A stretch of 39,643 nucleotides of DNA. Source: Candidatus Pacearchaeota archaeon. GTDB lineage: Archaea > Nanobdellota > Nanobdellia > Pacearchaeales > GW2011-AR1. Shown in pieces: positions 7,900 through 39,643 of the stretch. The DNA lies in the NCBI GenBank assembly GCA_017609885.1, contig JAFCDB010000002.1, positions 1-39,643 on the forward strand. The letters are read 5' to 3'. The notes under the pieces are model-generated. The model was not told the DNA's origin. It worked only from the letters and a program-made list of their open reading frames with translations, and made no database searches. A program made the position numbers and the translations under genes. The first letter of the stretch is position 1. Each line of letters starts with the position of its first letter.

Positions 7900-8166
7900 T
7901 CAATCCTCCAAATTAATTCCCAATTTGCTAATTTTCTTCCTATTTTCAAATAATCTATTATTAAAAAATAAGACAATAATTAAAACAACAACTCCAACAA
8001 TAAAGATGCTCAAAAATTTTAAAATAAGAACACTCTCTTTTTTCAATATTGGAATCGAACTAAACATAAATGCGATAAAAAGTGTAGCAACAATTACAAG
8101 AGAAACATTCAAATAATTTAAATCTGTTTGATATTTTAAATCATATAAATTTTTTCTAACATCCAT
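7900..8166 (-). CDS. Small membrane protein, two TM segments
   Basis: 88 aa from the ATG at 8166 (MDVRKNLYDLK), one base after the stop of the upstream gene. Two hydrophobic segments are visible (VSLVIVATLFIAFMF and FLSIFIVGVVVLIIVLFF), with a basic C-terminal tail. The role is unknown. It probably forms a two-gene operon with the 69-aa membrane protein. Confidence 0.6.
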   Translation of the reverse strand: MDVRKNLYDLKYQTDLNYLNVSLVIVATLFIAFMFSSIPILKKESVLILKFLSIFIVGVVVLIIVLFFNNRLFENRKKISKLGINLED

Positions 8167-8167
8167 T

Positions 8168-8377
8168 TTAATTAACAAATGCATCTAAAAAATAAAACAA
8201 ACCAATAAAAAATAACACCAACCCAATTATCCCACTCACCAAAGCAATTGCCTCTATTTTAATCACAAATGGAGCAGTAACAAACATCACAAGTAATCCT
8301 GCAATAAGAATAATTATCGAAAAAACTTTCTGGTCTTTTAATGTTTTAAACGGAAACATTCCTTTATTTTTTACCAT
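8168..8377 (-). CDS. Small membrane protein, two TM segments
   Basis: 69 aa with a short Lys-rich N-terminus and two hydrophobic segments (VFSIIILIAGLLVMFVTAPF and ALVSGIIGLVLFFIGLFYFL). A TATA-like TTTAAATAATT on the minus strand (about 8395-8405) predicts a leaderless start at 8377. Function unknown; the downstream gene starts one base after its stop. Confidence 0.6.
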   Translation of the reverse strand: MVKNKGMFPFKTLKDQKVFSIIILIAGLLVMFVTAPFVIKIEAIALVSGIIGLVLFFIGLFYFLDAFVN

Positions 8378-8423
8378 GTTAATTCAAAAACAACCAATTA
8401 TTTAAATTTTTATATATTCTCTC

Positions 8424-8693
8424 CTACAACCCAAAATTCTCAATAAAATTTTCAATAACTCGATATTCATGAAGAAAGTCATTCCCCTTCTTTGTCAGAA
8501 CAAAAAACTTCTTATCCTTCTTATCATTCTCAAGCTTAACAAAATTCTTCTTCAACAACTCATCAACATAATTCTTAAACATCTGCGGAGAAAGATTCGA
8601 AGCATAAAGCAGCCGCGTCGGCTTAATCTGCCTGTTCTCTCTAATCGCACCAAGTATGTCCCTTATGATATCCAGTCGCTCTCTTTTCGCCAT
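8424..8693 (-). CDS. Winged-helix DNA-binding protein (Sso10a/HTH_45-like)
   Basis: 89 aa. The pattern is that of small archaeal winged-helix proteins: first helix RLDIIRDILGAIRENRQIKPTR, recognition helix SPQMFKNYVDELLKK, wing FVKLENDKKDKKFFVLTKKG, then a C-terminal helix that in Sso10a-like proteins makes a dimer coiled coil. The gene begins 8 bp after the stop of the polytopic membrane protein gene on the same strand, so the two probably work together, perhaps as membrane sensor and regulator (inferred). Confidence 0.75.
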   Translation of the reverse strand: MAKRERLDIIRDILGAIRENRQIKPTRLLYASNLSPQMFKNYVDELLKKNFVKLENDKKDKKFFVLTKKGNDFLHEYRVIENFIENFGL

Positions 8694-38675: not shown

Positions 38676-39527
38676 TTATTTTTTCTTCATCACAATTCCT
38701 AAGATAACCAATAGAATAATTAAAACCGCGAGCAATATCCCAAAAATATACCAAAATCCTTCGAAAAATATTGAGCCTTCCTTGCAAATTCCTTCTTCAC
38801 AGTTTCTGCTCTGACATTCAAAATCTCTTTGGCAAATTTCATCAATGGTTTTTTGTTCAACCCAAATTCTTTCAGATGAACAATATTCTCCTGATTTTCT
38901 TTTTCCGACTTGGGTGCAGGCGTTTGCGTTTTTTGGAGTTGGGCAATCTTGATATTCTTTTCTATAATTCCCACACCCATCATAACATCCTCGAGTCATA
39001 TTCCCTATTTCTTCTTCTGATGGAGCTTCACTACCCATCCCACTCCAATCCATATCTAAATCACACGTCCAATTACTCCAACTTCCACATTCCCAATTCG
39101 GCGTGCAATCAGGCATAGCAGATTCTGTAATAATCAAAACATCATGCAAGTTTTCATCAAAAGTATTTATATCTGAATATTCCCAAACCCATGTTTTGTA
39201 ATTGTCTTCATTTGAAATCAAATTTATTGGATAATGCTCATTAAAAATAGCGTCGCAGTAACCTTCCACAGTTATTTTTTCATGTTTTGCTGATTGGTAA
39301 GTTGAAAGGCTGTCTAAATAGTAGTTGAAGGGCATATGTATGCTTTCATAAAAAATTTCTACTTCGATTTCTTCGTTGGGTTCAAAACTATAGTTAAAAG
39401 CAAGGTAATCATTTCCATCAATATTCAAAACAAATCCATCATAATAACCTTCTCCATTAATATCAATAAATGCAGAATATTCAATTTCGAAATCATCAAC
39501 TTCATAACATTCTCCATAACACTCCAA
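38676..39527 (-). CDS. Cys-rich surface protein with C-terminal membrane anchor, 5' end uncertain
   Basis: 283 codons from a TTG; no ATG or signal peptide is visible before the in-frame TAA at about 39592. The first 130 residues are acidic and Tyr-rich (FEIEYSAFIDINGEGYYDGF). Then come a thrombospondin-type block (CTPNWECGSWSNWTC, later CYDGCGNYRKEYQDC) and a second Cys repeat (CQRDFECQSRNCEEGICKEG), and a C-terminal membrane helix with a KKK end. It should face the outside, so the missing signal peptide suggests that the 5' part has been lost. Confidence 0.75.
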   Translation of the reverse strand: MECYGECYEVDDFEIEYSAFIDINGEGYYDGFVLNIDGNDYLAFNYSFEPNEEIEVEIFYESIHMPFNYYLDSLSTYQSAKHEKITVEGYCDAIFNEHYPINLISNEDNYKTWVWEYSDINTFDENLHDVLIITESAMPDCTPNWECGSWSNWTCDLDMDWSGMGSEAPSEEEIGNMTRGCYDGCGNYRKEYQDCPTPKNANACTQVGKRKSGEYCSSERIWVEQKTIDEICQRDFECQSRNCEEGICKEGSIFFEGFWYIFGILLAVLIILLVILGIVMKKK

Positions 39528-39560
39528 CCGAGCGTGTCTAAAAAATAATTCTAAAAAGGA

Positions 39561-39602
39561 AGTTTACCTCCCCTAATAAAATAAAGGAGGTAAACTACCA
39601 TG
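39561..39602 (+). promoter_or_regulatory. Hairpin covering the Shine-Dalgarno of the last gene
   Basis: AGTTTACCTCC (39561-39571) is the perfect complement of GGAGGTAAACT (39586-39596), with a 14-base loop. The right arm is the Shine-Dalgarno GGAGGT, 8 bases before the ATG at 39600. If the RNA folds, the ribosome site is fully paired. This fits a translational on/off switch, or the read-through protection common in mobile elements. Confidence 0.7.
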
Positions 39603-39643
39603 AAATACAGATGGAACACGGCTGTAAACAATTTAAACTTTGT
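39600..39643 (+). CDS. Start of an unidentified gene, cut by the window end
   Basis: ATG after a strong Shine-Dalgarno opens a frame reading MKYRWNTAVNNLNF before the window ends. Too short for a family call. The site-masking hairpin and the apparent loss of the neighbour's 5' end make a mobile-element gene possible. Confidence 0.5.
   Translation, partial: MKYRWNTAVNNLNF

Follow-up and report, generated by a model that had tools for sequence, protein, structure and literature searches.

A hairpin covering the transposase Shine-Dalgarno sequence as a probable lock against read-through translation in a multi-copy archaeal insertion sequence

The window, i.e., the whole stretch of 39,643 nucleotides of Pacearchaeota DNA that was analysed, ends with a hairpin followed by the first codons of a gene, and this locus raises the question of what a stem that buries a ribosome-binding site is for. 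Read directly, the arms AGTTTACCTCC (39561–39571, plus strand) and GGAGGTAAACT (39586–39596, plus strand) form a perfect 11-bp stem around a 14-nt loop (39572–39585, plus strand). The whole Shine-Dalgarno (SD) sequence GGAGGT (39586–39591) lies inside the 3′ arm, and ACC and then ATG (39600–39602) stand directly 3′ of this arm; the earlier note, which had described a perfect 11-bp stem holding the complete GGAGGT with the ATG just outside, was exact to the base. Extra pairing of GG (39558–39559) with CC (39598–39599) is possible. The last 104 nt of the window gave a folding energy of −24.1 kcal/mol (z = −4.53), and none of 200 shuffled sequences was equally stable. The cost of opening the SD core was 14.9 kcal/mol, while the maximum over 55 host SD+ATG sites was 9.7 kcal/mol. 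The gene start (39600–39643, plus strand) contains 14 codons (MKYRWNTAVNNLNF) up to the window edge, which is the end of contig C5 (39643 bases) and cuts the gene; its relatives start with M-[LK]-x-R-W and are DDE transposases of the PF01609 family. The only match in an Rfam search of the window was a tRNA.

The last 114 bases of the window (39530–39643) were found to be the left end of a multi-copy insertion sequence (IS), and an identical copy of the first 111 of them stands at the end of another contig of this genome, C15. The left terminal inverted repeat GAGCGTGTCTAA (39530–39541, plus strand) has the same start on C15 and is found inverted, as GAGCGTGTCTAATAATT, at seven other contig ends; the terminal repeat, as GAGCGTGTCT, recurs inverted and is followed by AATAATTAGCACG at the seven further ends. 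The own genome (G000) contains two left ends and seven right ends of the IS, all at contig ends, with GAGCGTGTCTAA present on both sides. Contig C5 breaks at the window edge because the IS is repeated. The earlier note had advised examining whether the hairpin lies at the end of a mobile element, and it does: the hairpin starts 32 bases inside the left terminus. By-eye inspection of the right ends in G000 (e.g., L015) also revealed an 11-bp palindrome, AATAATTAGCA/TGCTAATTATT, after the terminal repeat, which is less perfect in relatives. With seven right ends but only two left ends (contig ends L002, L013–L020), the partners of five copies are missing from the assembly or bin.

Directly before the IS lies the left copy of a 9-bp target-site duplication, ACTCCAACC (39521–39529), and the identical right copy was located at the end of contig C12. 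Joining of the two flanks (C5 and C12, with one copy of ACTCCAACC removed) gave a single open frame of 557 codons. The window's copy of the IS interrupts a minus-strand surface-protein gene, the 3′ part of which (38676–39529; ORF 38676–39527) encodes a membrane-anchored, cysteine-rich protein. Putative ribosomal-protein and secY-like genes, named from sequence, lie upstream of the IS in the direction of the transposase gene and may be a source of transcription entering the IS.

A complete relative of 924 bp with both ends and a 9-bp duplication (AAACAGAAG) was found in another Pacearchaeota genome (G124). The transposases of the relatives matched PF01609 (DDE_Tnp_1) with 46.8 bits (G124) and 38.1 bits (G339) at a cut-off of 23, and the family assignment of the window's IS rests on them, its own gene being cut after 14 codons. 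The alignment of the relatives contains the DDE motifs, namely D[AS]T[KE]F, a second D in AD[AP]..D, and RGES; the G030 row, the frame of which is broken, stops before a readable RGES. The domain above the Pfam cut-off and the DDE motifs are shared with IS5, but the best score against the NCBIfam IS5 equivalog families (42.6 bits) was far below the cut-off of 140. Judged by these relatives, the IS is an IS5-like DDE element with inverted repeats. Matches to the transposase were found in 6 of 371 genomes of the phylum (E 1e-10) and 7 of 200 genomes of the order (E 1e-15), and one further relative in a Woesearchaeota genome. No relative was found by sequence in the PDB at E values up to 1, and no viral relative was found.

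Membership in the IS200/IS605 family (HUH Y1 transposase, no inverted repeats or target duplication) was also considered and is ruled out by the DDE transposase, the inverted repeats and the 9-bp duplications. Thus, of the comparison with a translation switch and with IS200-type geometry made in the earlier note, the sequestered SD stands in silico, while the element itself is not of the IS200 type.

Eight distinct readable leaders of the window's IS, designated type A, were available: one each from G000, G124, G339, G408, G479 and G030 and two from G165. Matches without a start in the match or contig (G510, G499, G172, G474 and, twice, G313) gave no leader. In all eight, a stem pairs the SD with an upstream arm, and the perfect Watson–Crick stems are 6 to 12 bp long. 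Six pair positions were changed on both sides, as judged by minimum free energy folds of each sequence. The G479 leader has a different SD (GGGGTGA), together with a 5′ arm that is changed accordingly. These pair counts were taken from a per-sequence table and complemented with an arm-swap test in place of the MAFFT alignment of the eight leaders, in which three 5′ arms were misplaced. In the arm-swap test, the leaders paired with their own arms at −17.4 kcal/mol on average and with swapped arms at −13.1 kcal/mol, and 6 of 20,000 permutations were as good. The exact hairpin sequence occurred in only one of 92 genomes, namely the own genome, and the exact hairpin pattern was not found in viral contigs. 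The comparison of leaders indicates that the type A hairpin is conserved as a structure and not as a sequence. The earlier note had counted an ordinary housekeeping gene and a hairpin not conserved in relatives against its reading; what was found is a transposase gene and a structure kept with compensatory changes.

The median energy needed to open the SD was 11.1 kcal/mol in type A and 1.8 kcal/mol for the 55 host SD sites, which were SD+ATG sites preceding frames of 60 codons or more, taken from 219 kb of the own genome, this one genome only. Among these 55 sites, the longest perfect Watson–Crick stem on an SD was 5 bp, and a narrower control of 30 host genes gave a score of 0 in all. Compared with 200 mononucleotide shuffles of the upstream part, the opening energy was significant in all eight type A leaders (p ≤ 0.045; the p values are nominal, the leaders being related by descent). 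SD sequestration in type A exceeds that of host genes.

To place type A among the mobile elements of its genome, all 74 contig ends were compared, at least 23 of which share sequence. Four IS types with a transposase start at contig ends were distinguished (A, B, C and D), and all four have an SD hairpin. Type B (GGCTTTGGTGAAAC ends) encodes a PF01609 transposase, type C (GATACTGTC ends) a zinc-ribbon protein below the Pfam cut-off and type D (CAGTATCTCCGCA ends) a putative transposase. The opening energy was 7.9 kcal/mol for type B (median of 5 leaders; p < 0.05 in 4), 7.2 kcal/mol for type C (median of 15 leaders; p < 0.05 in 8; three leaders at 1.4 or below) and 9.4 kcal/mol for the one type D leader (p = 0.025); 7 of the 15 type C leaders were not above their shuffles at 0.05. 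Identical leaders were counted once in this set (the type A copy on C15 of G000 and type C repeats in G000, G063 and G040). The arm-swap test for type C, in which 13 of 15 leaders were used, gave 0 of 20,000 permutations as good; for type B, 3 of 5 leaders were used, and three distinct leaders decide nothing. A stem on the SD is likewise present in a type C relative inside contig C1. Contig C15 of this genome carries an IS200-type transposase gene next to the second left end of type A (L003, ~8110–8590, minus strand; named from sequence and apparently broken), and the SD of this gene is unpaired.

All these characteristics allow us to propose, with a probability of about 0.66, that the hairpin is an anti-read-through RNA translation lock in the transposase leader of a multi-copy archaeal IS5-like (DDE) IS. 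An mRNA entering the IS from outside would contain both arms and fold, so that the SD would be hidden and little transposase would be made. The own promoter of the IS, with a TATA box in or beside the terminal repeat, would give an mRNA that starts in or behind the 5′ arm, and such a self-initiated mRNA, having lost most or all of the stem, would be translatable. In silico, the hairpin is predicted to sequester the transposase SD in read-through mRNA in all eight type A leaders, and a 5′ end beyond the 5′ arm is predicted to free it; in vivo, the hairpin would presumably repress translation. The suggestion of the earlier note, a putative SD-sequestering switch or protection of a transposase gene, gains support from the position of the hairpin before the transposase gene of an IS.

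The proposed lock depends on where the native mRNA begins. TATA-like hexamers in 128 upstream regions of the own genome are concentrated between positions −29 and −27 relative to the ATG, and in the position weight matrix learnt from these regions the box TTTATAAA begins at −29. Many host genes appear leaderless because the TATA signal clusters about 29 bases before their ATG. The host genes of contigs C5, C18, C27 and C36 show a strong TATA peak at −29 and few SD sequences. The anti-SD GGATCACCTCCT is present in the 16S rRNA of G003 (same genus) and G033 (same family), the 16S gene of the own genome being cut. The 16S matches in G000 (C20:8826–9649, L200), G124 (C5:9108–9915) and G002 (C10:105–914) end at the same model position (828), and about 100 bases further on the contigs of G000 and G002 stop; an intron or other insertion in the 16S gene at this position is possible.

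Using the host calibration, the start of transcription was predicted 29 bases after the start of the TATA box. Two candidate boxes TCTAAAAA were found in the window: a weak one at 39537–39544 (plus strand, score 2.3), with a predicted start at ~39566, inside the 5′ arm, and a second at 39550–39557 (plus strand, score 2.3), with a predicted start at ~39579, behind this arm. Type A has weak TATA matches, with scores of 2.3 to 2.7 in the window's copy, close to the host median of 2.6. Of the type A boxes, the most consistent one would place the start at element position 37, inside the 5′ arm of the window's copy, with 8.3 kcal/mol left, and the native type A mRNA may therefore be still partly locked. 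Another box would give a start at position 50 with 2.9 kcal/mol of opening energy left, and a third (G000, G124) would give a nearly leaderless mRNA. When the 5′ end was swept in silico, the opening energy of type A was at most 4.5 kcal/mol once the end reached element position 39 (7 leaders swept). For most leaders of types B and C of the own genome and of their relatives, the best box leads to starts at element positions 45–46 and 53–57, behind the 5′ arm, and the opening energy from such starts was at most 4.7 kcal/mol in nearly all leaders swept, the exception being the G122 type C leader (~9). The sweep covered 16 of the 29 leaders of all types, and the TATA analysis was made without the type C matches G504 and G063_C26, the leader of which is not homologous. 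A native start behind the 5′ arm is thus weakly supported for type A and better supported for two other IS types of the genome.

The same data bear on a second explanation, namely that the native mRNA also starts upstream of the 5′ arm and the hairpin reduces the amount of transposase made from any transcript, perhaps being relieved by an antisense RNA or a protein. Such constitutive damping would agree with the weak and ambiguous TATA signals of type A, one of which puts the start inside the arm, and it has a parallel in ISPpu9, whose leader buries the ribosome-binding site and is relieved by antisense RNA according to the part of PMC8450116 used here. The host-calibrated TATA position (−29) in types B and C, however, predicts a start behind the 5′ arm in most leaders, and the element end and the arm are only approximately 31 bases apart, which hardly leaves space for a promoter with a start upstream of the arm. 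We regard this explanation as unlikely, although it retains an appreciable chance.

If the palindrome acted at the DNA level, it would belong to the site recognised by the transposase or be a terminal transposition hairpin, as in IS200/IS605. It does lie less than 70 bases from the terminus, and the element has a second palindrome at its right end. Three complete short elements share the termini of the window's IS: 132 bp twice in G064 (L129:980–1111 and L130:2442–2573) and 165 bp in G124 (L132:1031–1195). They have perfect 9-bp target duplications and contain neither the transposase start nor the SD hairpin. The hairpin being absent from these three non-autonomous copies, the IS ends move without it. 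In addition, the DDE transposase, the inverted repeats and the 9-bp duplications argue against an IS200/IS605-like end, and it is the pairing with the SD that is kept, not the sequence. The hairpin is a feature of the leader rather than a transposition end, and a DNA-level role is very improbable.

A little less probable again is a riboregulator of the transposase gene that senses a ligand or temperature. The geometry would suit an RNA thermometer, but the hairpins are simple, their stems and loops vary without a common ligand-binding core, and Rfam yielded nothing in the window except the tRNA. A chance palindrome has a negligible probability: 219 kb contain two other 11-bp stems on SD-like sites, which are both strands of one palindrome with an ATG on each (G000, C36, ~50475–50511) before 34-codon frames, but the window's hairpin is conserved in 8/8 type A leaders with compensatory changes.

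The generality of the translation lock was evaluated in a sample of PF01609 loci (30 loci, 137 genomes searched), 11 of which have an SD by rule, some at doubtful start codons. An opening energy of 7 kcal/mol or more was reached by only one of these 11 SD-led starts; in two others, the SD sits in the apical loop of a stem. With only 1 of the 11 sampled starts at this level, the lock belongs to particular IS types and is not universal. By eye, L223, L237 and the type C leaders of G063 and G166 have an SD that falls, entirely or in part, within the apical loop of a stem ending beside the ATG, a geometry unlike that of an SD in the 3′ arm. The idea that SD-less transposases of the family escape read-through by being leaderless was unsupported: a TATA box at leaderless distance was found at 4 of 29 first ATGs versus 62 of 128 host genes. 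Somewhat short of even odds, we suggest tentatively that several unrelated IS types of Pacearchaeota each gained an SD lock with a 5′ arm ending just before the native start. This would be a convergent anti-read-through design, tied to the archaeal TATA spacing and to hosts with many leaderless genes, in which only self-initiated transposase mRNA could be translated.

To our knowledge, the control of transposase expression in archaea and their IS has been little studied, and no report of SD hairpins in archaeal IS was found in the literature searched, most subscription papers being outside its scope. If the proposed lock is confirmed, it would explain how short archaeal IS escape activation by the genes next to which they insert. 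It would also provide a search rule (a TATA box, 29 bases to the start, the anti-SD arm before the start and the SD arm behind it) and, in DPANN archaea, a contrast that can be tested, with leaderless host genes on one side and SD-led, lockable transposase genes on the other.

Several bacterial IS have comparable leaders. In IS10 and IS50 of the IS4 family, mRNA from outside forms a hairpin that hides the ribosome-binding site of the transposase, while transcription from the own promoter of the element begins within the first arm. The window's IS resembles them in the hiding of this site in read-through mRNA; it differs in that IS10 and IS50 have bacterial sigma-70 promoters, whereas the window's IS has archaeal TATA/start geometry with a predicted start, an IS5-like transposase and an unrelated sequence. 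For IS200 of Salmonella, PMC3196728 reports one stem-loop that occludes the ribosome-binding site of the transposase gene and a second that terminates transcripts running into the element; it describes IS200 as having no inverted or direct repeats, while the window's IS has inverted repeats, 9-bp duplications and a DDE transposase. Several IS of Amoebophilus asiaticus are mentioned in the same source as having predicted stable hairpins in the first 50 bp; these IS are bacterial, the data are not shown, and the passages concerned contain no covariation or start-site argument. For ISPpu9 of Pseudomonas putida, the sections of PMC8450116 considered here report that mutations weakening the leader structure raise translation, and the leader is long (translation start at +245), unlike the short hairpin beside the terminus of the window's IS. 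The lock mechanism itself is not new: it is known in bacteria, and a hairpin probably serving it is seen here in several archaeal IS.
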